Assembly (NCBI RefSeq): GCF_008001035.1
Contig: NZ_CP042856.1
Location: 1,550,001 to 1,614,000 of the forward strand
Length of the DNA stretch: 64,000 nt
Direction: 5' to 3'
From: Salinibacterium sp. dk2585
GTDB taxonomy: Bacteria > Actinomycetota > Actinomycetes > Actinomycetales > Microbacteriaceae
Part shown: piece after piece, positions 35,360 through 48,809 of the stretch
Layout: every line of letters begins with the position of its first letter
Position numbering within the stretch: the stretch's first letter is position 1
Position numbers and translations under genes: made by a program
Notes under the pieces: model-generated
The model's database searches: none
The model's input: only the letters and a program-made list of their open reading frames with translations
What the model was told of the DNA's origin: nothing

Positions 35360-36148
35360 CTACGCCCCGAGCGCTGCCGCGGTCGCACGGTAGGCCGTGA
35401 GGCCGCCGTCGACCCGCAGGTCGGCACCGTTGACCCAGGCGGAGTCCTGCCCGAGCAGGAACACGATGACCCGTGCGATGTCGAGCGGTTCACCAAAACG
35501 TCCGAGCAGCGCGGCGGCGCTGTCGACCCTGTCGCGGCCGTGGTCGTTCTTGAAGTCCTCGAGGATGGGGGTCTGCACGGGGCCGGGGCTCACCGAGTTG
35601 ACCCGGATGCGCTTCGGCAGCAGCTCCCCCGCCAGGTACTCGGTCAGCAGGTTCACACACTGCTTCGAGAAGAGGTACGACTCCTCGCGCAGCGGCTCGG
35701 CCACCGCGTTAAGGGCAGCGGCGCGATCCTCGGCGAGGGCGAAGGCCGCGCACTGTTCTGCGTGCGAACGCCATTGGAAGGCGACGGACGAGGCGAGGTT
35801 GACCACGCTCGAGCCCGGCTGCAGCGCGGGTTCGAGCGCGCGCGTCAGGTCGCGCAGGCCGAAGACGTTGATGCCCAACACGAGCTGCCACGGTGCGGTG
35901 CCCGGGACCCCCGCGACATTGGCGAGGCCGGCGATTCCGCCAGGAGCCGCTTCCCGCACGGCTGCCGCGATCGCGTCGATCCCCTCAGCACTCGAGAGGT
36001 CGCCCTGCACGAAGTGGCCGTCGAAGGACGCGGGGACGGCGCGGTCGATCCCGATGACGGGGTGTCCAGCCTCAGCCAGCAGCGCGGCGGTGGCGGCACC
36101 GATCCCCGAGGCGACACCGGTGACGACGATGGGCAGTGGCTTGGGCAT
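35360..36148 (-). CDS. Coniferyl-alcohol dehydrogenase-like SDR
   Basis: 262-residue short-chain dehydrogenase. N-terminal IVVTGVASGIGAATAALLAE binds NAD(P). The catalytic Ser is in LASSVAFQW and Tyr/Lys in SYLFSKQ, separated by a long insertion (HAEQCAAFALAEDRA onward), a feature of the 3-alpha-hydroxysteroid/coniferyl-alcohol dehydrogenase group. RVNSVSPGPVQTPIL and ADLRVDGG complete the fold. Expected reaction: an aryl or cinnamyl alcohol to the aldehyde. It is divergent from an aldehyde dehydrogenase, with an IclR-like site midway, supporting a shared pathway. Confidence 0.85.
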   Translation of the reverse strand: MPKPLPIVVTGVASGIGAATAALLAEAGHPVIGIDRAVPASFDGHFVQGDLSSAEGIDAIAAAVREAAPGGIAGLANVAGVPGTAPWQLVLGINVFGLRDLTRALEPALQPGSSVVNLASSVAFQWRSHAEQCAAFALAEDRAAALNAVAEPLREESYLFSKQCVNLLTEYLAGELLPKRIRVNSVSPGPVQTPILEDFKNDHGRDRVDSAAALLGRFGEPLDIARVIVFLLGQDSAWVNGADLRVDGGLTAYRATAAALGA

Positions 36149-36219
36149 CCAGGACTCCTTCGGTTCGGGGTGCGTGCCTCACCATGCTGCGCCCGGCACG
36201 GCCCTGCGCGCACACCGAC

Positions 36220-36234
36220 TTCCATTCAGTGAAA
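36220..36234. promoter_or_regulatory. Candidate IclR-type operator between SDR and aldehyde dehydrogenase
   Basis: TTCCATTCAGTGAAA is an inverted repeat (TTYCA-N5-TGRAA); TGGAA-type half-sites occur in the E. coli IclR consensus. It sits near the midpoint of the 151-bp gap, 71 bp from the SDR start and 65 bp from the aldehyde dehydrogenase start. A related copy lies at 42458-42472 (shared TTTC, four bases, AATGGAA when read on the opposite strand). Confidence 0.5.
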
Positions 36235-36299
36235 CCGACATCGGCGGAAGGGGCTCCCGTCGCGATGCTGGAGGGGAATCGCTCCGAGGAAGGACACCC

Positions 36300-37676
36300 A
36301 TGACTGCCGTGTACGAGGTCATCGACCCCGCAACCCTCGAGGTCATCGGCGTCGCCCCCGACCACAGCGAGGCGGATGTCGCGGCCGCCGTCGACCGCGC
36401 GATCCGGGCCGAACGGTCCTGGGCCTCCGACCGCGAACAGCGGCGAGGCGCCCTGCGAGCCATCGCCGGCAGCATCCGCGCCGATGAGGAGCGCCTCGCC
36501 CGCCTGCTCTCGCTCGAACAGGGCAAGGTCATGGCGGACGCCGTGGGTGAATTCCGCGTGGCCGCCGGTCTCTTCGACTACTACGCCGAACTCGATTGGC
36601 CTGAAGTCGAGACGCTGCCCGACCGCGCCGACCGCTCCCTCGAGGTGCACAATCGCCCCGTCGGGGTCGTCGGTACCATCACGCCCTGGAACTTTCCCAT
36701 CTCGCTGCTCTGCGTCAAGCTCGCTCCCGCCCTCGTGGCTGGCTGCACCGTCATCGCCAAGCCCTCCGCCACGACGCCGCTCTCGACCATCGCGCTCGTG
36801 GAGCTCGCGGCCAGGGTACTGCCAGAGGGCGTGCTGCAGGCGAGCACGAGCCGCGGACGCGCCGTCAACGTCGCCCTAAGCACGCTGCCCGGGGTGCGCA
36901 AGATCTCCTTCACAGGATCGACGGAGGTCGGTTCCGCGATCGCGCAGCAGGCCGCCGCGACCGTCAAGCGGGTCACGCTGGAGCTGGGCGGCAACGACCC
37001 CGCCATCGTGCTTGACGACGCCCACATCGAGACCACTGCCCGAGGCATCGTCGGCAGCGCCTTCCGCAATTCCGGCCAGGTCTGCATGGCCGTTAAGCGC
37101 GTCTACGCGCCCCGCAATCGGGTCGACGAACTCATCGACGCCATCGCGGCCGCCGCCGCCGCCCACGTGCTCGGTCACGGTGTCGCCGAGGGCACGACCA
37201 TGGGCCCCATGCACAACCGCTCGCAGCTCGACATCGTGAGTGGCCTCATCATCGATGCCGAGGCATCCGGCGCACGCGTCGTGACCGGCGGGGCACGCGG
37301 ATGCGAGCTGCCGGGCCACTTCCTGCAGCCCACCGTCATCGCGAACGCCGAACCCGGCATGCGCATCGTCGAGGAGGAACAGTTCGGCAACGCGCTGCCC
37401 ATCGTCGCCTACGACGAGCTCGAGACGACGCTCGAGCTCGTCAACGCCGGCGAGTTCGGCCTCGGCGCCTCCGTCTGGAGCCCCGACCTCGAGCGCGCCC
37501 ACACGATCGCCTCCCGCATTGACGCGGGAACCGTGTGGATCAATCAGCACACGCTCGTCGAAGTCGACGCGCCATTCGGCGGCTGGAAGGCCTCAGGCAT
37601 CGGCCGTGAGCGAGGCCGCTGGGGCCTTTCGGAGTACCTCCAGACGCGCACGCTCAACGCCCGGCCACACGGCTAG
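36300..37676 (+). CDS. NAD(P)-dependent aldehyde dehydrogenase
   Basis: 458 residues from ATG 36300, with GAGGAAGG upstream. Catalytic Glu228 lies in VTLELGGNDP and Cys262 in NSGQVCMAVKRVY. Cofactor segments TPWNFPISLL and FTGSTEVG are present, ending in PFGGWKASGIGRERG. The sequence is of the succinate-semialdehyde/aromatic aldehyde type. Neighbours suggest it oxidises an aromatic aldehyde made by the divergent SDR. Only 18 bp precede the MBL-fold gene, so the two form an operon. Confidence 0.9.
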   Translation: MTAVYEVIDPATLEVIGVAPDHSEADVAAAVDRAIRAERSWASDREQRRGALRAIAGSIRADEERLARLLSLEQGKVMADAVGEFRVAAGLFDYYAELDWPEVETLPDRADRSLEVHNRPVGVVGTITPWNFPISLLCVKLAPALVAGCTVIAKPSATTPLSTIALVELAARVLPEGVLQASTSRGRAVNVALSTLPGVRKISFTGSTEVGSAIAQQAAATVKRVTLELGGNDPAIVLDDAHIETTARGIVGSAFRNSGQVCMAVKRVYAPRNRVDELIDAIAAAAAAHVLGHGVAEGTTMGPMHNRSQLDIVSGLIIDAEASGARVVTGGARGCELPGHFLQPTVIANAEPGMRIVEEEQFGNALPIVAYDELETTLELVNAGEFGLGASVWSPDLERAHTIASRIDAGTVWINQHTLVEVDAPFGGWKASGIGRERGRWGLSEYLQTRTLNARPHG

Positions 37677-37694: not shown

Positions 37695-38624
37695 ATGACC
37701 ACAGAACTCATCACGCTCGGCACCGCCGCCGGGCCCGCAATCCGGGGCACCGAACCCGGCATCTCGAGCGCCCTCATCGTCGACGGTAGGCACTACATCG
37801 TCGACTTCGGGCTCGGCTGCGTGCGAGCCGCGCACGCTGCGGGCCTGCGGGGTCGTGACTTCGTGGCGGGCTTCATCACCCACCTGCACTCCGACCACGT
37901 CATCGAACTGCCCGGGTTCCTGCTGTGGAACTGGGGCGCGCCCGTTGACGGCTTCGAACACCCCATCGCGATCCTCGGCCCGGGGCAGGACCCAACGCAC
38001 GCCGACGGCGCGAGCCTCTCCGGCACGGCCCAGATGGTCGCGCACACGCTGCAGGCCTACTCCTACGACCTCGACATCCGGGTGAACGACGAGGCACGGC
38101 CCGAGATGTCCCGCCTCGTACGGGTCTCCGACATCACGACACCGGAACCGGATGCTCCCGATGCCGCGCTCCCCTTCGGTGTCTACAGCGACGACCGCGT
38201 CGCCGTGACTGCGGCCCTCGTGGAGCATCCGCCGGTCTTTCCCGCGCTCGCGTATCGCTTCGAGACGGCCGCCGGCTCGGTGACCTTCTCCGGCGACACC
38301 GCTGAGTGCGACGCGCTCGCGACCCTAGCGGATGGCACGGACGTGCTCGTCCACGAGGCAGTCAACCTCGACTACTACACGGCACGCGGCTTCGATCCCG
38401 CCTTCATCGCGCACCAGGCCGAGTCCCACACGTCACCAGAGGGCGCCGGGCGCATCGCGAGCAGGGCGGGGGCCCGGATGCTCGTGCTCTCCCACCTCGC
38501 TGGCGTCGCCTCCGCTGAGGAATGGCAGGAGCGGGCCGCGACGACATACTCGGGCCCGATCCATGTTGCCAGCGGCGGCGACCGGATCGCGCTGCGTGAG
38601 GTCGCTTCGGCCACGATGGCCTGA
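37695..38624 (+). CDS. Metallo-beta-lactamase-fold hydrolase
   Basis: 309 residues. The metal motif is THLHSDHVIELPGF (HxHxDH), with VTFSGDTAECD and VLSHLAG contributing further ligands; the layout is RNase Z/arylsulfatase-like rather than beta-lactamase. No signal peptide. Downstream partner of the aldehyde dehydrogenase gene; hydrolysis of an ester or lactone intermediate is a reasonable inference but not shown. A strong terminator follows. Confidence 0.85.
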   Translation: MTTELITLGTAAGPAIRGTEPGISSALIVDGRHYIVDFGLGCVRAAHAAGLRGRDFVAGFITHLHSDHVIELPGFLLWNWGAPVDGFEHPIAILGPGQDPTHADGASLSGTAQMVAHTLQAYSYDLDIRVNDEARPEMSRLVRVSDITTPEPDAPDAALPFGVYSDDRVAVTAALVEHPPVFPALAYRFETAAGSVTFSGDTAECDALATLADGTDVLVHEAVNLDYYTARGFDPAFIAHQAESHTSPEGAGRIASRAGARMLVLSHLAGVASAEEWQERAATTYSGPIHVASGGDRIALREVASATMA

Positions 38625-38681: not shown

Positions 38682-40046
38682 TCAGGCGATGTCGAGTCCG
38701 AGCTTGCGACGGTCGCGCTGTTGGTTGATGAACAGGCAGGCCGCGAGACCGGCGACCGCGAGCATCGCGCCCGTGAGCAGGAAGGCGTTCGAGTATCCGA
38801 TCGCGGCCGTGGGTGCCCCGTCGACCAGGAATCCGACGACCATGGGCGCGCAGAGGCCGCCGGCCGTGAGGAAGGCGTTCGTGATCTGCAGCACGGCGCC
38901 ACGTTGCGACACGCTAGAGGTCTCGGCTGCGATGAGGTAGGTCATCGCGAACAGCGCGGGCGAGGTGCCGAAGCCGAACATGAAGCAGATGGTGGCGAGC
39001 GTCGGGTCGGCGACGACCGTGCCCGCGATGACCATGACGCCCGCAAACAGCGCCGCACCCCCGAGCACGAGACCGCGCGACTTGCGGGTCGCGAGACCTC
39101 GAGCGCTCAACACCTGTGTGAACCAGCCGAGACCGATCGTCGCGATCGTGCCCCAGATCGCCGGAAGCGCGATGAGCGAGCCACCCTGCTGGGTCGTCGT
39201 GCCGAGCACCGTCTCGTAGTAGGCCGGCAGCCAGGTTGTTGCGACCGTGAACGTCCAGTAGCCAAGGAACGAGCAGAGCACGGCGAGGAGCCAGGTCGGC
39301 GTGAGGAAGGAGCGCAGGTAGGGCACCTTGGTGTCGGCGGCAGCCGCGGCACGCTCATCGACGATCGTCGCCGCGGTGCCCTCGATACGGGCCTCCTCCC
39401 TTGCTGAGGTGTAGGGGCCCTCTCGGCCGACGATGACCCAGATGACCGACCACACGACACCGATAATGGCGAGGAAGACGAAAGTCGACTTCCACCCGAA
39501 CTCCGAGCTGATCCAGGCCAGCACGGGCGCGAAGGCGACGATCCCGAGCGTCACGCCCGACGAGACGATGGATGCGGGGGTCGCCGACTTCGCGGCGGGG
39601 AACCACTTGTAGGCGGCATGCATCGAGATGGGCGCGAGCGGCCCCTCCCCTGCGCCCAGGAGCAGGCGACTGAACCACAGCGCCGGGAGGGAGGCGAAGA
39701 CGAAGATGGGCACCTGCGCAATAGACCAGATCAGGCAGAGCGTCAGCAGGATCCACTTGGACTTGACCCTGTTGGCGATCGGTGCTGCGACGAACTGGGC
39801 GATGCCGAACAGCATGAAGACGGCGCTGCCGAGCAGGCCGAACTGGCTCGGCGTGATGCCGAGGTCGTTCATGAGCGGCACCGCGACGATGCCGAGGATG
39901 GCTTTGTCTGCCCAGCTGATCATCATCAGGACGAGCAACATGGTCGTCATCGACCAGCCGATCATCCTGCGACGACGAGGGGTCCAGGTCGCGGGGTCCT
40001 GCGATGCCGGAGCGACGGTCTGGGGTGGTGGCACGGTGGCAGTCAT
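38682..40046 (-). CDS. MFS transporter, ACS-like
   Basis: 454 residues, 12 predicted helices. The N-terminal block MISWADKAILGIVAVPLMNDLGITPSQFG and GAGEGPLAPISMHAAYKWFP are typical of the anion:cation symporter (ACS) family, which imports organic acids such as sugar acids and phthalate. Central hydrophilic loop around 215-245. It follows the P450 gene by 56 bp on the same strand and is likely the uptake system of the module. Substrate inferred from context only. Confidence 0.88.
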   Translation of the reverse strand: MTATVPPPQTVAPASQDPATWTPRRRRMIGWSMTTMLLVLMMISWADKAILGIVAVPLMNDLGITPSQFGLLGSAVFMLFGIAQFVAAPIANRVKSKWILLTLCLIWSIAQVPIFVFASLPALWFSRLLLGAGEGPLAPISMHAAYKWFPAAKSATPASIVSSGVTLGIVAFAPVLAWISSEFGWKSTFVFLAIIGVVWSVIWVIVGREGPYTSAREEARIEGTAATIVDERAAAAADTKVPYLRSFLTPTWLLAVLCSFLGYWTFTVATTWLPAYYETVLGTTTQQGGSLIALPAIWGTIATIGLGWFTQVLSARGLATRKSRGLVLGGAALFAGVMVIAGTVVADPTLATICFMFGFGTSPALFAMTYLIAAETSSVSQRGAVLQITNAFLTAGGLCAPMVVGFLVDGAPTAAIGYSNAFLLTGAMLAVAGLAACLFINQQRDRRKLGLDIA

Positions 40047-40102: not shown

Positions 40103-41302
40103 TTACGCGGCCCTAATGGCCACGGGCAGCGAGGTGAATCCCCGCAACACGTTGTGGACGAGGGGCACGGGTTCTCCGGCCGGCTCGATCGTGAGCACCC
40201 GCTCGAGCAATTGCTGCAGCACGATCTCGATCTCGAGGCGGGCAATGGGCTGGCCGACGCACTGGTGCAGGCCCATCCCAAAGGCGAGGTGCCCCGAGGA
40301 GTTGCGGTCGAGCCTGAACTCGTCGGCGTCGTCGCCCCATCGGCGGGGATCGCGATTGGCGGCGCCGATGAACACGAGCACCTTCGCTCCCGCTGGCAGG
40401 TGTACGCCGCCGAGGACGGTGTCTACCGTGACGGTGCGGTGGTACTTCTGGAAGGGCGATTCGAGCCGCAGCGCCTCGTCAATCGCGAATTTCGCGAGCG
40501 ATGGCGTCTCGCGAAGCTGCGCCCACACCTCTGGCAGCCGCGCCAGCACCGAGAGGGTGTTGCCGATGCCGAAGATCGTGGTGTCGATTCCTGCCGACAG
40601 GAGCGCGCGCACGAGCAGCGTTGCCTGCTGCACAGAGATCAGGCCATCCTCGACCCGGTCCCAGATCTTGGCGCCGAAGCCGTCGGCGTCGAGGCTTTCG
40701 CGCTCGCACGCACGCATGACGACCTCCGCGTGTGCCTCTCCCTCGGCGAAGGCCTCCTCGAGGATGGCGTTCTTGGGGCCGAAGGCGTTGAAGACCATGT
40801 TGCCGTAGGGCAGCAGGTGCTCCCGTCCCTCCTGCGGAATCCCGACCGCATCCGGGAAGACGCGGATCGGGTACTGCTCGGCAAGGTCGGTCACCGCGTC
40901 GAAGCGGTCCAGTCTGGCCAGCGCAGAGGTGATCTCAGCGGCCGGCGGAGTGAACGGGCCACGCAGCGACCGCACCGTGCCTGGGTTAATCACGCCCGTG
41001 AGGGCACGACGCATGACGGTGTGCGTCGGCGGGTCGGATTCGAGGATGCTCGGCGGGCGCCATCCCTCGTCCTCGCGGATGTCATGGGGGCCGAGGCCGC
41101 CGGAGGAACAGTAGGTCTCGAAGTCTGTGAGGATCTCGTAAACCTCCTCGTGGCCCGCGACCGCGAAACAGTTGTACTTGGAGAGCCACGTCACCGAGCC
41201 GGCATCGCGAAGTCGCGCCAGGAGCGGATGCGGGTCCTGGATGTTCTCGATCGAGAACGGGTCGTCGTCGAGCACCATCGCGTCGATCATCGTCTTCGTC
41301 AT
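40103..41302 (-). CDS. Cytochrome P450, CYP199-like
   Basis: 399 residues from ATG 41302. The heme-ligand loop FGMGLHQCVG carries Cys348; I-helix LLSAGIDTT has acid-alcohol pair Asp240-Thr241; ExxR is E276/R279. Long stretches (WRPPS then ESDPPTHT, YPIRVFPDAVG, LLPYGNMVFNAFGP, NRDPRRW) resemble CYP199, whose members O-demethylate 4-methoxybenzoates. Compared from memory with CYP199A, an Arg in the B-C loop is Gly68 here, and a Ser after the conserved R232 is Ala233. Encoded after its likely reductase; soluble, no membrane anchor. Confidence 0.88.
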   Translation of the reverse strand: MTKTMIDAMVLDDDPFSIENIQDPHPLLARLRDAGSVTWLSKYNCFAVAGHEEVYEILTDFETYCSSGGLGPHDIREDEGWRPPSILESDPPTHTVMRRALTGVINPGTVRSLRGPFTPPAAEITSALARLDRFDAVTDLAEQYPIRVFPDAVGIPQEGREHLLPYGNMVFNAFGPKNAILEEAFAEGEAHAEVVMRACERESLDADGFGAKIWDRVEDGLISVQQATLLVRALLSAGIDTTIFGIGNTLSVLARLPEVWAQLRETPSLAKFAIDEALRLESPFQKYHRTVTVDTVLGGVHLPAGAKVLVFIGAANRDPRRWGDDADEFRLDRNSSGHLAFGMGLHQCVGQPIARLEIEIVLQQLLERVLTIEPAGEPVPLVHNVLRGFTSLPVAIRAA

Positions 41303-41325: not shown

Positions 41326-41378
41326 GGGTCAGGGTTTGAGCAAGGGTCGGGGTTCGAGCACGGTCAGAGGTCGAGCAC
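41326..41378. repeat. Three imperfect tandem repeats at the reductase-P450 junction
   Basis: Units 41326-41343, 41344-41361 and 41362-41378 are near copies (first two 15/18 identical). The third unit covers the last codons and stop of the reductase gene, so the gap before the P450 seems to have grown by duplication of that gene's 3' end. Confidence 0.65.
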
Positions 41379-42365
41379 GAGACGTGGGCAGCCAGCCGCC
41401 GCGCGGGAGACGCAGACGAGCATGACGTCGCCCGCATCGCGGTCGGCCTCGGTCAGCACAGCATCGCGGTGTTCGATGTCACCCGAGACGACCCGGGTCT
41501 CACACGTGCCGCAGAGGCCGGTGCGGCAGCTGGAGAGCACGCGCGCTCCGACCGCTTCGACGGCCTCGAGCACGGTCGTGCCCACCTCGACCGTCACGGT
41601 CGTGCCCGAGCGCACCAACTCGACCTCGAAGGGTTCGGTCGAGCCGCCCGCGTCGAGTGCGGCGGCCACGAACCGCTCGGTGTGGAGCGCGCCGGGGGGC
41701 CAGCCCATGCAGAACTCCTCGATCGCGGCAAGCATGCCGGCGGGGCCGCACGCGTAGACGAGCATGTGGGCCCTCGGCAGGGCGAGGAGCGATGCTAGGT
41801 CGAGACGGCCGCTCTCGTCCTCGGCCGCGACTGTCAGCCGTTCCGCGCCGTACGTCTCGACGAGCTGGCGGGCAAAGGCCATCGTCGAGCGGCTGCGACC
41901 GCCGTAGATGAGGCGCCAGTCCCTGCCGTCGCGCTCGGCTGCCTCGATCATCGGGATGATCGGCGTGATGCCGATACCGCCGGCGATGAAGAGGTACTTG
42001 CGCGAGTCGAGGAGGGGAAAGTTATTGCGTGGCTCAGAGATCGTGACGGGCGCGCCCTCGACCAGGGCCTCGTGGACCCGCCGGGAACCGCCGCGGGAGT
42101 CGGGTGTGTACAGCACAGCGATGCGGAGGTGGCTCAGGTCGCTCGGACTCGAGCAGAGCGAGTACTGCCGCACGATGTCGTCGCCGACGTGGACGTCGAT
42201 GTGTGACCCCGGATCCCAGCCGTGGAAAGGCTCTCCGTCGGCGCGGCGAAGCACGAGCGAAACGACCCGGTCAGCGACGGTCTCGACGCGGTCCACGATC
42301 GCGTCGATCGCCCCGGTCGTGCCGCTGGCCTCGGCCGGGCCGGTCTCGATGGTCATAGCCCTCAT
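41364..42365 (-). CDS. Phthalate-dioxygenase-type reductase (FMN, NADH, 2Fe-2S)
   Basis: 333 residues from ATG 42365, chosen because AGGAG and GGAG lie upstream; ATG 42356 is alternative. Flavin motif RQYSLCSSP, NAD(P) motif GGIGITPIIPMI and YACGPAGMLAAI, then a C-terminal plant-type ferredoxin domain with SSCRTGLCGTC and a later CVS. This domain order is the PDR/VanB type. It precedes the P450 by 61 bp and probably supplies its electrons directly, a two-component counterpart of CYP116B-type fusions. Confidence 0.88.
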   Translation of the reverse strand: MRAMTIETGPAEASGTTGAIDAIVDRVETVADRVVSLVLRRADGEPFHGWDPGSHIDVHVGDDIVRQYSLCSSPSDLSHLRIAVLYTPDSRGGSRRVHEALVEGAPVTISEPRNNFPLLDSRKYLFIAGGIGITPIIPMIEAAERDGRDWRLIYGGRSRSTMAFARQLVETYGAERLTVAAEDESGRLDLASLLALPRAHMLVYACGPAGMLAAIEEFCMGWPPGALHTERFVAAALDAGGSTEPFEVELVRSGTTVTVEVGTTVLEAVEAVGARVLSSCRTGLCGTCETRVVSGDIEHRDAVLTEADRDAGDVMLVCVSRAAAGCPRLVLDL

Positions 42366-42457
42366 GCTCCATTGCTCCTAGCTCGTTCGCGGTCGACGCT
42401 CGCGTGACCTTGACGAGAGCGATGCTAGGGCTGCCTCCAGCGCCACTCGGCGCGGTT

Positions 42458-42472
42458 TTTCGTCTAATGGAA
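42458..42472. promoter_or_regulatory. Second candidate IclR-type operator, upstream of reductase-P450-MFS
   Basis: TTTCGTCTAATGGAA shares the TTTC-N4-AATGGAA pattern with the site at 36220-36234 but its left arm is weaker. It overlaps the IclR stop codon and lies about 93 bp upstream of the reductase start. Confidence 0.35.
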
Positions 42473-43291
42473 TTCGCTCGCCACGAGGCCATCCTCTGGA
42501 AAGGAGCTCGAGTCGCTGTAGAGGCGACGAGCGACGCTGCGGGCCGCAATGCGGAGCACGGGGATGACCGTGCCGCGGGCAGGCGGACGGTCCTGCGTCA
42601 CCACGCCGAGTGCCCCGACGAAGGTGCCACTCGCGAGGATGATCGGCACTGCGAGGCCATAGTTCGCCGGTCCCGCCTCCTCCGCCGTCGCTGCGTACCC
42701 CCGCGACTTCACGGCAGCGATCTCGCGAGCGAGTGCGTCGGCATCCGTGATGGTGTTGGCGGTGTGGCGCTCGAGACGGCGAGAAACCCGCGACAGCATC
42801 TCGGGGTCACCGAAGGCGAGCATCACCTTGCCTGCGGCACTCGCATGCAGCGGCATCCGGGCACCCACCTGGCGGAAGGGAGTGCCAGCGCGCGTGCCGG
42901 AGATGCGTTCGACGAGGAGGGCCCGGTCGCCGTCGGGCACGAAGAGATTCACGATGTTCTGCGTGACGAAGAGCACGTCCTGCATGTAGGGCGCGGCGAC
43001 CTCGGCGATGTTCTGGCGCACGGGCGCGAGCAGGCCGAGCCGCCAGATCTCGCGCCCGATGACGAACTCCCGGCCCACCTTCGCGAGCGCTTCGGCGTGC
43101 ACCAGTTCGCCAGCGATGCGGTGGGTGGTGGCGACGGGGAGCCCCGCTCGCTTGGCGAGTTCCGTGAGCGCCAGGCGCGGATGCTCGCTGTCGAAGGCCG
43201 CGAGGATCGCGATTGCCTTGGAGGTGACGGAGGGTTGCGCGCTGGGGGTCGCGTGCGGGTCTCTGGCCTGACGGGGCCGCGGGTTTACCAT
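42464..43291 (-). CDS. IclR family transcriptional regulator
   Basis: 275 residues from ATG 43291. N-terminal winged helix (VTSKAIAILAAFDSEHP, LALTELAKRAGLPVATTHRIAGELV) and the IclR effector domain (RISGTRAGTPFRQVGARMPLHASAAGKVMLA; GYAATAEEAGPANYGLAVPI). IclR proteins often control aromatic catabolism with the substrate or an intermediate as effector. It is read in the same direction as, and immediately upstream of, the reductase, P450 and MFS genes. A TTCCA half-site lies just before its start. Confidence 0.9.
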   Translation of the reverse strand: MVNPRPRQARDPHATPSAQPSVTSKAIAILAAFDSEHPRLALTELAKRAGLPVATTHRIAGELVHAEALAKVGREFVIGREIWRLGLLAPVRQNIAEVAAPYMQDVLFVTQNIVNLFVPDGDRALLVERISGTRAGTPFRQVGARMPLHASAAGKVMLAFGDPEMLSRVSRRLERHTANTITDADALAREIAAVKSRGYAATAEEAGPANYGLAVPIILASGTFVGALGVVTQDRPPARGTVIPVLRIAARSVARRLYSDSSSFPEDGLVASEFH

Positions 43292-43436
43292 GATCTCTCC
43301 GTGCATTCCAGCGATGCGTCGCCGTGCGCTCTCGCCGGACGCTCAGTGCACGGTACCGCAGGCGGCTGGTAGAGATCTTCGCCCCGGGAATTCGCCCGAG
43401 AATCGGGGGGCGCACCCTCTTGGACTTCTCGGTCGC

Positions 43437-44232: not shown

Positions 44233-44277
44233 ATGAGCACTCACCCTGAAATCGCGACACGGCCAGGCGACACCTGA
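44233..44277 (+). CDS. Possible 14-codon leader ORF before crcB
   Basis: ATG 44233 opens a 14-residue frame (MSTHPEIATRPGDT) whose TGA overlaps the crcB ATG (TGATG). If translated it would couple initiation of crcB. There is no clear Shine-Dalgarno, so it may be chance. No fluoride riboswitch was recognised in 44115-44276. Confidence 0.25.
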   Translation: MSTHPEIATRPGDT

Positions 44278-44738
44278 TGGCACCGCGCCCCGAGCACCTC
44301 AAGTGGGCACCGATCGGGCTCGTCTTCGTTGGCGGCGCGTGTGGTGCAGCAACTAGCGAGTGGCTCTCGCTGGTCATCCCCAAACTCGGCGAAGTGCCTG
44401 TCTCCATCGCCATCATCAACGTCATCGGTGCCTTCCTCCTCGGCTACTTGTACGAAGCGTTGACCCGCCTCGACAACACGAAGCCGACCGGCAAGAACCT
44501 CAAGCTCCTTTTGGGCACCGGATACTGCGGCGGTTTCACGACCTACAGCTCACTCGCCACCGACACCGGCGTGCTGTTCCGCGATGGCTTGCCGGTTGAA
44601 GCGACTATCTACTCGCTGGGCACCGTTCTCGTCGGAGCATGTGCCACCTGGCTCGGCATCGTCATCGCCAACGCGGTGAACAAGGCCCGCGGGCCCGAAA
44701 CGGAGCAGCCCGCTGACCAGACCTGGAAGGCATCATGA
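44277..44738 (+). CDS. crcB: Fluoride channel CrcB/Fluc (first subunit)
   Basis: 153-residue four-helix membrane protein that exports fluoride. Family blocks: FVGGACGAATSEWLSL, INVIGAFLLGYLYEAL (with the conserved Asn) and LLGTGYCGGFTTYSSLATDT. The C-terminal tail is longer than usual. It overlaps the second crcB by 4 bp (ATGA). Paired genes usually form an antiparallel heterodimer, whereas single CrcB proteins form homodimers. Local GC is lower than that of the surrounding genes. Confidence 0.93.
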   Translation: MAPRPEHLKWAPIGLVFVGGACGAATSEWLSLVIPKLGEVPVSIAIINVIGAFLLGYLYEALTRLDNTKPTGKNLKLLLGTGYCGGFTTYSSLATDTGVLFRDGLPVEATIYSLGTVLVGACATWLGIVIANAVNKARGPETEQPADQTWKAS

Positions 44739-45112
44739 CTCCCATGATCTTTCTGCTCCTCGCCGTTGGCGGCGGCGTAGGCGCTTGCATCCGCTTCACC
44801 GTCGACGGGCTGATCCGCTCACATATGAAGACCAAATTCCAGTGGGCGACAACGATCATCAATGCCTCAGGATCACTGGTGCTCGGCTTCCTCACCGGCC
44901 TGACCATGGTGCATCTGCTGCCCACCGACCTCGGCATCGTCATCGGCACCGGATTGCTCGGCGGGTACACGACCTTCAGCACCGCCAGCTACGAGACCGT
45001 GCAACTCATCAAGGAGAAGCGCTACGGCCACGCGTTTATCAGCGGCGTTGTCATGCTCGTGCTCTGTGTCGCACTCGCCGGACTCGGACTCTGGATCGGC
45101 GCCTCCATCTGA
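44735..45112 (+). CDS. crcB: Fluoride channel CrcB/Fluc (second subunit)
   Basis: 125 residues. Blocks [34 protein letters not shown] and [19 protein letters not shown] match Fluc proteins, including the Asn and the GGxTTFS motif. Coupled to the first subunit. Positions 44821-44880 count 28 G+C in 60, well below neighbouring core genes, suggesting horizontal origin. Confidence 0.93.
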
Positions 45113-45151
45113 CGAAGAAGCCCGCGCCCCGGTATCGGCAGACTTGCACCC

Positions 45152-45304
45152 GCCCATCGCCTGCGAGTCCGACGACACGATCGAGATCACGCCTTCGTCG
45201 TGCAGCACCGTTTCTGCCGCGATCGTCTCGGCGTGCACCCGCGAGTCGGCGAACGACACGTCTTCGGGGATGTCGAGTGCGTGCCCGCCTCCCGCGCCTT
45301 CTGT
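45152..45304 (-). pseudogene. ureC: Decayed fragment of urease alpha subunit
   Basis: The minus-strand frame contains TEGAGGGHA followed directly by [20 protein letters not shown] and [22 protein letters not shown]. These match two conserved parts of UreC: the [12 protein letters not shown] segment and the PEDVAFAESRI...AAEDVLHD...SSDSQAMGR segment. About 40 residues expected between them are missing, and the sequence stops resembling UreC on both sides. Only about 50 codons survive, with no start. It fills the gap between crcB and the channel-FUSC gene; no other urease gene is in the window. Confidence 0.8.
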
Positions 45305-45326
45305 GCCCACTGGCCCCTCGGCTGCG

Positions 45327-48300
45327 CTATGTCCCGGCGCGATCCAGCCGGATATCGCCGGCCTGCGGCGCAAGGTCGACGGCCATGATCGCGACCGTTT
45401 GGTTGGCCCTCGCGAGCGCACGGAGCGCCGCCTCGGCCGAGTGTGGCTCGTCCGTATCCCCGAGATCGTCGATGCCGATGTCAGGGCGCACCGGACCGGA
45501 GGCCCGACCTTCATAGGCCGCAATGAGGGCATCAAAGTTCTGAGCGGTCGCCGTCTCGAGCTGCTCCCACTGGTCATCGGTGAGGCGCGCTTTGGCGCGA
45601 TGGCCCTGTTCAGCGGATGCGATGAAGTGCCTGGTGTAGTACAGCAGCTCCCAGAATCCGGTGAGGCGGTTCTCGATCCCGCCGGGCGCGAATGCACCGG
45701 AACCGTGACGCAGCGGACCCGCCGTTGCCTGAAGGTCTCGCAGCCGGCTCGTCATCACGACTTCCTGCTTCGACAGCGCGGCAATATCGTCGGCCGACGG
45801 CTGTCGATTGCGCTTCCACAGCTCCAGGGTCGCCGTCGTGATCGACTCAACAGTCCTCGCGAGCTCGACCGCCTGCCTGGCGAACTTGTCGCTCGTGCGT
45901 GTCGGCAGAATCAACGCGGCGACGATCAGGGCGACGCCGGCTCCGATGATGGTCTCGACGATGCGCACACCGATTGTCTCAGTGTTCAAGCGGCCCATGA
46001 ACTCGTACATCTGCGCGAACATCATCGTCGTCCAGAACGACGTGAGCGGTGACGACGCCCCGCGGAAGTACGTCGTCGCGAAAATGCTGACCGCGAGCAC
46101 CGGCACGAGCACCGCCGGATTTGATCCTGCCGCAATGGCAATGCTGAACCCGACGATCGCACCGAGCACGGTTCCGGCGATCCGCTGCGAGCCCTTCACG
46201 AAGGTTTCGCCATCGGTTCCCCCGATCGCCTGGTATGCGGGCATGGCTGCCCAGTACTGGTGGGTTGTCGACACGAACGACCCGAGGGAGAGGGCAACGG
46301 CTGTTGAGACACCGGCCTGGACGGCTCTGCGCCAGATGGGTGCGGTGTCGGCGGAGACAGGAGCTTCCGCGGCTGCGGGGACGCCGTCCGTCGCCCTTGC
46401 ATCCCCGTCGGCGGTTGTCGCCGGAACCGCGGTCTCGGGCGCGGGGGACGATTGCGTCGACAGGTCGGCCCACGCAGGCACGGATGCGAGGTCAACGGCA
46501 CGCGCCGAATGCAGCACGTCGACCGCGTGCTGCAACTCGTGCGCAGCGCCGAGAACGCGACGTGCGGCTCGTGGCCAGTGGGCAGCCGACTTGAGTGACG
46601 GCAGCGATTCCAGTGAATCGGCTGCGGAGACAGCAGCGGGCGGGTTCGGGGTCGGGGCCTCGTCACCCTTTTTTGTAGGCGAAACCCACGCCGGAGCATC
46701 CGGGTAGCCGGTGATGTGCTTCTGCACCGACTGAAGGGCTCCGGCAAGGCGCGCGCGAACGTCGACCGGCACACCGGCTCCCGTCGCCAATCGGGCTTCG
46801 GACGACAGGTTCACCAGCGCAAGTTCAGCCTCGTGAACGCGGATGCGCAGCGCACTCGCCTGCTCGGCCGTCGACCCGATGTCGGGGTCATCACCCGTCA
46901 ACTGACCAGCCAGGAAGGAGGCCATCTGGTGCGTTCGCCGGAGTTCACTCCTGGTGCGGTGCATGAGATCGGGGTCCCATCGCGCCGCGGACACCGCATC
47001 GATCATCGGATCGAGCGCGCGCACCAGGCGGTTCTCAAAAGCGACAACCCCGCCTTTCACCACCCGGGCGTGTGCGCCCTTGTTCGGCACCAGCTGAAGC
47101 ACGACGGAACTGAGGACGCCGACAACCGCTGCGCCGGCGAACGGGAGGAGTTCGTCGACCTGGAGGTCGAGGATCAGCGTGAAGTAGTACGTCATGAACG
47201 CGAGCTGGCCCAGCCCACCCAATTTCGGACCGAAACGAGTGACGGCGATCCCGATAAAGGCCAAGGCGACAAGGGCCGCGCTCGCCGGAAGCGGCTCGCG
47301 CGGAATCAGTGCATGAATTCCGAGCGAGACCAGCACGGGCACGAGGGAGATGAGCGCGGCGAGCCGCCGGATCCCGTGCCCACCCCCGGATGCCGCACTG
47401 GTGAACATGGCGATCATTCCGCCGAAGATGGCGGCCGGGAACGCCGGGAGGCCAATCTGGGGCAGACTGACGGCAAGAACTGCCACTGCGAGCGCCGCAG
47501 CGAGGAGTCCCCTGATGGCCCCGATGAGCCGAGTGAAGCCCGGGTCGACGAGGGTGATTCTCCGGGACAGGAAGCCCCAAATTCCTCCGTTGCCGTCCTT
47601 CCGCTCGGTTTCATCTGGCGCTGGCGCCAGGATCGCCTCCGGCGCTTCATCCTGCGGGTTGGAGTAGATCGGCTGGTAGTCCAGGTCGCGACTGATCGCC
47701 GCGCTGAACTGCTGGGCACGGTAGGCGAACGGCAGCCACGCCAGGTAGCGGGAGTACGACTCGTTCAGGTCTGTCAGGGGTTCAATACCCACGAGCCTGG
47801 CCATCTCTCGGTTGACGAGGACGAAGCGGCTCACCCAGTAGTCGACGTCGTCCTTTCTCCTGACACGTCGACGCAACGTGGTCCGTTCCTGCGCGAGTTC
47901 GGCGCGTACCTGCCGAGAGAACTCACCGGCCGTCACCGTCTCAGGCACATCGGTGCTCGTCCAGTTGAGCAATGGATGCATGTAGGTCTCGAACTCTTCG
48001 AACTGGTCCGTCAGCGGCAGGAGCATTGGCTGAGCGGTGACCGGGTTCGGCGCGGGGAGGCCCCAGCGCAGACCGCCGATAATCCCGGCCAACATCTGGA
48101 TCGAGTACGGCAGCGAGAACGTATCGCGACCGCTTTGGAAGTAGTAGGCGGCGTGGTACAGACGCACCCCGTCGGTGTATGAGCTGAAGCTGTCAGACAC
48201 GCTCTGCAGGTGTGAGTCGAGCCCTGTCTCAGTGCCGCCGGGGAAGTACGGTTCGAGGCTCGAGATCGGGGGCCCGATCCCGTCTCCTGCGCTGTAGAAC

Positions 48301-48809
48301 TGCGACGACAGAGACCGAAGATTGGAGATCACGTCATATACGCCGAGCAGGAAGGTGAGAATGAGCGAGACCAGGACAACCCCGCTCACGGTCTCCACGA
48401 CCGAAAGGATTCGGAGAAAATCCGTGTTCGGCGTCAGTTGTGATGTCCCGACGGCAGACAGTTGGGCGGTGCTGAAGTACATCGCACCGAACAAATCGCC
48501 GTGCACGCCGTCGTACGTGAAGTTCTTGCCCTGCATCGAACCGAGGTAGATCAACCCGAAACCGATGATGGTTCCGCCGATCCAGGTGATCACGGCTCCC
48601 AGAACCTGCAGCCCGATCACCTGACGGAGAACAACCGGCCGCCAGCGCCGCGAGAGGCGTCGGGTGAACCGTCTCGTCAGCCCCCACTGCCAGCGGGCAA
48701 CCCGCCCGGCTACGAACCCCGCCTCGTCATAGTTGAGCGCGCTGAGGAACACATCGATGAGCGTCACCGCTAGAACGACGAATCCGAGTCCTACCCACAG
48801 GGCATCCAT
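45327..48809 (-). CDS. Ion-channel-like module fused to FUSC-type membrane domains
   Basis: 1160 residues. Residues 1-160 look like a two-helix K+-channel pore module: helix, helix, then [18 protein letters not shown] (110-127) in place of the usual TVGYGDITP filter, then a second helix ([17 protein letters not shown]). A soluble region follows to about 425, then two FUSC-type multi-helix blocks (about 430-565 and 815-985) joined by a helical and Pro/Ala-rich linker, and a cytoplasmic helical tail. Likely an ion-conducting or efflux membrane protein. No close family recognised; unusual architecture. Confidence 0.75.

Follow-up and report, generated by a model that had tools for sequence, protein, structure and literature searches.

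The cytochrome P450 described here is a genuine member of its superfamily, is related to the bacterial demethylases of lignin-derived acids, and by its sequence falls on a CYP199 branch of its own. We put at about an even chance a reading in which it is the oxygenase of a two-component system with a PDR-type NADH reductase, as in PbdAB, and works within a seven-gene module on an aromatic compound, most likely an acid. The gene lies in a 64,000-nucleotide stretch of the Salinibacterium sp. dk2585 chromosome, referred to as the window (Table 1). The gene system around it is more interesting than the two residues on which the original prediction turned.

Table 1. Features of the module, with positions counted from the first nucleotide of the window
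Feature	Position	Strand	Remarks
Short-chain dehydrogenase (SDR), coniferyl-alcohol-dehydrogenase-like	35360..36148	-	234 bits, cut-off 242
Candidate operator CTTCCATTCAGTGAAAC	36219..36235		between divergent SDR and ALDH genes
Aldehyde dehydrogenase (ALDH)	36270..37676	+	
MBL-fold hydrolase (RNase Z / arylsulfatase-like)	37695..38624	+	
MFS transporter	38682..40046	-	nearest to anion carriers DgoT, sialin, VGLUT
CYP199-like cytochrome P450	40103..41302	-	399 aa; Cys348 in FGMGLHQCVG, AGIDTT in helix I
F284-Q-K-Y-H288 codons	40439..40453	-	VQTFF in CYP199A4 and PbdA
Ala233 codon	40604..40606	-	replaces second carboxylate Ser (PbdA Ser237, CYP199A4 Ser244)
W81-R82-P83-P84-S85 codons	41048..41062	-	carboxylate Arg and first Ser kept; one-residue deletion directly after Ser85
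Gly68 codon	41099..41101	-	position named in the original prediction; Ala in PbdA
PDR-type reductase (NAD domain, then C-terminal 2Fe-2S)	41364..42365	-	likely P450 electron partner
Candidate operator TTTTCGTCTAATGGAAT	42457..42473		91 nt before reductase start
IclR-family regulator	42464..43306	-	nearest NCBIfam PcaR/PcaU/PobR, below its cut-off

The P450 reading frame is intact in translation and is recognised by PF00067 (Pfam, 92 bits). Its nearest solved chains, matched over the full length, are PbdA (9g9q, E 3.9e-115), CYP199A2 (2fr7) and CYP199A4 (4dnz), with 47–48% identity, which bears out the original match to CYP199 along the whole protein. The predicted model (mean pLDDT 91.6) superimposes on all the CYP199A-type structures listed with Z 55–57 and rmsd 1.4–1.6, the next P450 scoring Z 44.5. 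The hallmark motifs FGMGLHQCVG, AGIDTT and E276..R279 are present, their key letters being invariant in a 45-row alignment, and this is the sole P450 found in the 2.84 Mb host genome. Assignment to the CYP199 family calls for amino-acid identity above about 40% with named members, a level that the protein exceeds while also carrying the heme-Cys motif, the acid-Thr pair in helix I and ExxR. Membership of the CYP199A subfamily goes by more than about 55% identity to its members; at 47–48% the protein falls short, it sits in a separate clade (SH-aLRT 100), and of the Arg-Ser-Ser carboxylate site reported as conserved in CYP199A it keeps Arg82 and Ser85, the third residue being Ala233. We compared 80 loci from named genomes, 41 of which form, together with the window, the clade of module P450s; the other 39 are A-type.

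According to the sections of PMC11530827 on the active site, the substrate carboxylate in PbdA is contacted by Arg84, Ser87 and Ser237, plus a water on Arg236, and this Arg-Ser-Ser site is said to be conserved in CYP199A; the equivalent contacts in CYP199A4 are given as Arg92, Ser95 and Ser244 in a passage of PMC11854964. In our alignment the WRPPS motif supplies PbdA Arg84 (its R) and Ser87 (its S), and VRS supplies Arg236-Ser237. The window P450 has WRPPS (R82, S85) and VRA (R232, A233), so that one of the three contacts is changed. The original prediction had named two: the replacement of Ser by Ala233, with R232 kept, holds, as Ala233 aligns to PbdA Ser237 and CYP199A4 Ser244, while the supposed loss of the contact Arg at Gly68 does not, as that residue (Arg84 in PbdA, Arg92 in CYP199A4) is retained as R82. 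Gly68 aligns to CYP199A4 Arg78 and PbdA Ala70, and the A-type loci have Ala (30/39) or Arg (9/39) there. Since PbdA and these 30 loci carry Ala, an Arg at this position is not needed for benzoate binding, and we rejected Gly68 as a carboxylate contact.

Mutants of PbdA offer a guide to what the remaining change might do. In the parts of PMC11530827 that report them, S237A turned over 4-methoxybenzoate at 2600 units against 2700 for the wild type, with a Kd of 29 versus 3.8 uM, and p-methoxybenzaldehyde at 27 units (~1% of the acid), against no detected turnover by the wild type; R84M gave no turnover of the aldehyde, and S87A/S237A gained its coupled O-demethylation (180 units). Since S237A keeps its activity on 4-methoxybenzoate, the Ser to Ala change alone predicts no carboxylate-free substrate, although carried over to a protein with 48% identity this result is a guide and nothing firmer. 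Differences from PbdA beyond those originally noted are the deletion after WRPPS and V288F, T290K, F291Y and F292H in SPVQTFFR (PbdA numbering). Because Val288 and Phe291 are among the residues that PMC11530827, in its account of the structure, describes as lining the PbdA pocket, Phe284 should alter the pocket of the aligned window protein; Lys286 and His288 may be directed away from it, close to the heme-binding Arg. With the other pocket differences seen in the clade, a changed substrate is likely. The same account names the pocket phenylalanines as Phe173 and Phe176; the numbering that fits Arg84, Ala174, Ser237 and Phe291 puts the FNAF phenylalanines at 175 and 178, and the printed pair is probably a slip.

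The clade stands apart with SH-aLRT 100 and a stem of 0.63, as judged from a quick tree with no bootstrapping; L019/L020 and L014/L017 are nearly identical pairs in it. Gly68, Ala233, Phe284 and His288 are fixed in 42/42 members, and every member lacks one residue right after WRPPS, WRPAG or WRRAG. The clade signature is SPFQ(K/M)(F/Y)HR, versus SPVQTFFR in the ordinary CYP199A type; position 286 is Lys in 30 members and Met in 12, and position 287 is Phe in 41, with Tyr in the window alone. All 39 A-type loci have Ser at both serine positions, and 38 of them (the exception is L047) have Val at the 288 position. Across all 81 proteins, 42 module and 39 A-type, the Arg of the WRPPS position (Arg82) and Arg232 are invariant. 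Ser85 is kept in 36 of the 42 clade members, and the other six, which read WRPAG or WRRAG, have neither serine. An A-type probe run on 35 of the 41 clade genomes found many CYP199-type places; among the best 20 with DNA, which we classified, six were A-type with Arg-Ser-Ser (L112–L117), four belonged to another group and ten were module copies. The module is therefore not just a second copy of a CYP199A-type enzyme, since 6/35 module genomes also carry an ordinary one. The four in the other group (L118, L119, L120 and L122) are CYP199-related; their B-C loop is shortened, ARG or PKG replaces PPS, and their genomes hold the module as well.

The original prediction had placed an SDR and an aldehyde dehydrogenase next door, and both genes were confirmed. 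The PDR-type reductase gene adjoins that of the P450, as in PbdAB, across a gap of 61 bases, and from this adjacency we infer that the reductase passes electrons to the P450. Among the 42 module loci we counted the P450 and the reductase 42 times each, ALDH in 41, SDR in 38, MBL in 36, IclR in 35 and MFS in 32; these are tblastn counts with the window proteins at identity thresholds of 42–55% that we set ourselves, and several absences fall at the end of a locus. Ten loci have no close MFS in their flanks, eight of them in the order MBL-ALDH-SDR-IclR-RED-P450 (RED, reductase). The gene orders make up 16 distinct strings, some distinct only by truncation at locus ends. Since the set stays constant while the order is shuffled, the genes are expected to share a function, and the conserved module is probably one pathway for an aromatic compound. 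In the flanks of the 39 A-type loci no match to SDR, ALDH, MBL or MFS appeared at E 1e-10; a 48–54% identical reductase lies upstream in 25 of them, and the remaining 14, whose flanks hold no PDR-type reductase, all come from Proteobacteria except L044.

Set beside PbdA/PbdB of Rhodococcus jostii RHA1 (9g9q; portions of PMC11530827), the window P450 has the same fold (Z 56.0, rmsd 1.4), a reductase partner, the carboxylate Arg and first Ser, the equivalent of Arg236 and the pocket Phe residues; it differs in having 48% identity, Ala for Ser237, the deletion and four substitutions given above, and SDR, ALDH, MBL and MFS genes around it. CYP199A4 and CYP199A2 of Rhodopseudomonas resemble it in fold, WRPPS, heme motifs and about 47% identity, and differ in the same residues and gene set as PbdA. 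The guaiacol O-demethylase GcoA/GcoB (CYP255A) consists of a P450 and a single flavin/2Fe-2S reductase. GcoA was not recognised among the nearest P450 matches listed, and structure entry 5ogx, which we take to be GcoB, matches the window reductase in the 2Fe-2S part alone, which is N-terminal in 5ogx and C-terminal in the window.

The two operons of the module also share a sequence motif. A palindrome, TTTCCATNNNATGGAAA, precedes the reductase-P450 operon and recurs between SDR and ALDH; an alignment of the SDR/ALDH intergenic stretches revealed TTTCC...GGAAA. With at most three mismatches over its 14 fixed positions it occurs before the reductase in 30/42 loci and before SDR in 25/38, compared with 130/4000 random 250-base stretches of the same loci, true sites included. 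The best match in a whole locus has two mismatches or fewer in 29/41 module loci, 0/41 shuffled ones and 0/25 A-type loci with a reductase, a test that is not independent because the consensus was drawn from the same loci it was scored on. Loci whose reductase lies inside an operon (SDR-RED-P450 in L026–L031, MFS-RED-P450 in L003, L036 and L039) lack a good site ahead of that gene; L003, L036 and L039 have one with 0–1 mismatch before the MFS gene. The window's own sites are weaker, with 3 and 4 mismatches, and a sharper pattern drawn from these two, TTCCATTNNNNGAAA, occurs genome-wide in those two places only (reversed control, 0). As far as sequence goes, the shared palindrome suggests one IclR regulon over both operons, with the IclR protein presumably binding at the candidate operators. 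The conserved gene set and this operator-like motif back the originally proposed link between the P450 and SDR/ALDH.

A pathway can be proposed from these parts. The MFS transporter would bring the aromatic compound in, and SDR and ALDH would convert an alcohol through the aldehyde to the acid, either before or after the P450; the first order is likelier, given the invariance of Arg82 and Arg232 and the resemblance of the carrier to anion transporters. Fed by the reductase, the P450 would oxidise the para substituent, most likely by O-demethylation with release of formaldehyde, and the product would enter PobA and the protocatechuate branch. Control of both operons would probably lie with IclR, acting at the shared palindrome. 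The likeliest substrate is a para-substituted aromatic acid anchored by Arg82, its identity being a guess; such an acid would be bound by Arg82, Ser85 and Arg232 and would sit differently owing to Ala233, the deletion after WRPPS and Phe284. The host genome encodes PobA, a 4-hydroxybenzoate 3-monooxygenase by NF006091 (544 bits, cut-off 351) that scores below the stricter TIGR02360 cut-off, and PcaH, PcaG and PcaC above their curated cut-offs; a PcaB-like protein narrowly misses its own. By these assignments the host can probably use 4-hydroxybenzoate, the product of para-O-demethylation of 4-methoxybenzoate. Among the points against the proposed pathway is that it gives the MBL hydrolase no role, though at a guess this enzyme may release the compound from an ester or a conjugate (its nearest solved chain is 8gyg, a partial match labelled arylsulfatase). 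Another is that six of the 42 module proteins have lost Ser85 too. A substrate was sought through solved structures matching the SDR, MBL hydrolase, MFS and reductase and through relatives on plasmids, and none emerged.

More tentatively, and at rather less than an even chance, the clade may be an unrecognised CYP199 subfamily that left benzoates by stepwise loss of the serine contacts, at the Ser237 position in all 42 members and at the Ser87 position also in six and in the sister P450s described below. It would be the natural counterpart of the engineered PbdA S237A and S87A/S237A. Together with the SDR, ALDH, MBL hydrolase and anion carrier it would form an IclR regulon so far undescribed, for the breakdown of a class of aromatics to which no P450 has yet been assigned. 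The sisters are encoded in two genomes of the host's family (L137 4414-9086 in G041 and L138 7835-12786 in G064). They are 51–52% identical to the window protein, read WRPRG or WRPQG, VRA and SPFQSFFRT with the same deletion, and adjoin an IclR regulator, an aromatic amino-acid lyase (PF00221, 524/536 bits) and a PDR reductase, possibly as a lyase-linked P450 pathway.

Other substrates have to be weighed against the proposed para-substituted acid. It is conceivable, if unlikely, that the acid has a longer or different arm (an arylacetate, an arylpropenoate or another ring), with Ala233 and the shortened loop making room and Arg82 as the anchor. The deletion next to WRPPS and V288F, fixed in all 42 proteins, would suit such an acid, and so would the sister group with its deletion, VRA, SPFQ and lost Ser85, where the lyase would supply an arylpropenoate-type acid; that group, however, is just 51–52% identical to the window protein and is without the module. 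We regard as still less probable a plain O-demethylase of 4-methoxybenzoate or veratrate, equivalent to PbdA and changed at one Ser by neutral drift. Arg82, Ser85, Arg232, both Phe of the FNAF pocket and the PDR reductase are kept, and S237A was fully active on the acid in the PbdA mutant data cited above, but 42 proteins from several families share the differences without exception, 6/35 such genomes also hold the ordinary CYP199A type, and the gene set around the P450 is another. Fixed Ala233, the deletion, Phe284 and His288 argue for a substrate that is not simply 4-methoxybenzoate. Both of these alternatives overlap with the para-substituted acid that we prefer. Doubtful, lastly, is action of the P450 ahead of SDR/ALDH on the originally proposed kind of substrate, a carboxylate-free aryl alcohol, aldehyde or phenol. 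In its favour, each of the 42 module proteins has lost one carboxylate Ser and six (WRPAG/WRRAG) have lost both, SDR and ALDH lie in the presumed regulon of the P450, and S87A/S237A of PbdA gained 180 units on the aldehyde in the same mutant data, yet Gly68 was misassigned, Ser85, Arg82 and Arg232 remain in the window protein, the transporter is of anion type, and PbdA S237A showed 27 units on the aldehyde versus 2600 on the acid, with no aldehyde turnover in R84M.

The use of lignin streams by biology is limited by O-demethylation, and in the laboratory work of PMC11530827 the two PbdA serines tune activity on acid versus aldehyde. Natural proteins in which one or both are replaced, fixed in a conserved module, make the step from sequence to substrate a question open to test, and the conserved companions and operator-like motif mark out a concrete pathway. 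In the open-licence PMC literature, by title and start of abstract, we recognised no paper describing the module and found nothing under CYP199B to CYP199E or under 8GYG.

Carriers of the module are mostly Micrococcaceae, plus Streptomyces, Blastococcus and Halopolyspora. None of four other genomes of the host genus matched the P450 at E 1e-60, and in the host family 10/150 sampled genomes did, the window's own included, the best other at 52% identity. This pattern suggests acquisition from a source outside the host lineage, a direction that we infer. Around the presumed insertion, the PCMT gene and the stretch from 49165 match G151 at 90%, and window positions 1 to 43431 found no match in 19 kb of G151. 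Window 44277-48809 encodes a 1160-aa protein and two adjacent small membrane proteins that resemble a CrcB fluoride-exporter pair; at the corresponding place G151 holds only ~1.1 kb between conserved flanks.

The MBL gene was sought apart from the P450, and at E 1e-60 one of 394 genomes from the class matched, the window's own. Plasmid records gave no hit to the SDR at E 1e-50, and MBL relatives on plasmids (7 records) were below 60% identity, with other surroundings in both loci viewed. For the P450, 40 plasmid records matched, likewise all below 60%, and L132, L133 and L134 read as ordinary A-type. On a Rhodococcus opacus plasmid (L132 7442-12398) an A-type P450, a PDR reductase, a tautomerase and a 4-hydroxybenzoate 3-monooxygenase lie near one another and would suit as a control for the p-methoxybenzoate route. 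On the Pseudonocardia plasmid pBCI1-2 (L133 6644-10176) an A-type P450 and the alpha subunit of a Rieske oxygenase flank a single PDR/VanB reductase, as if the two shared it.
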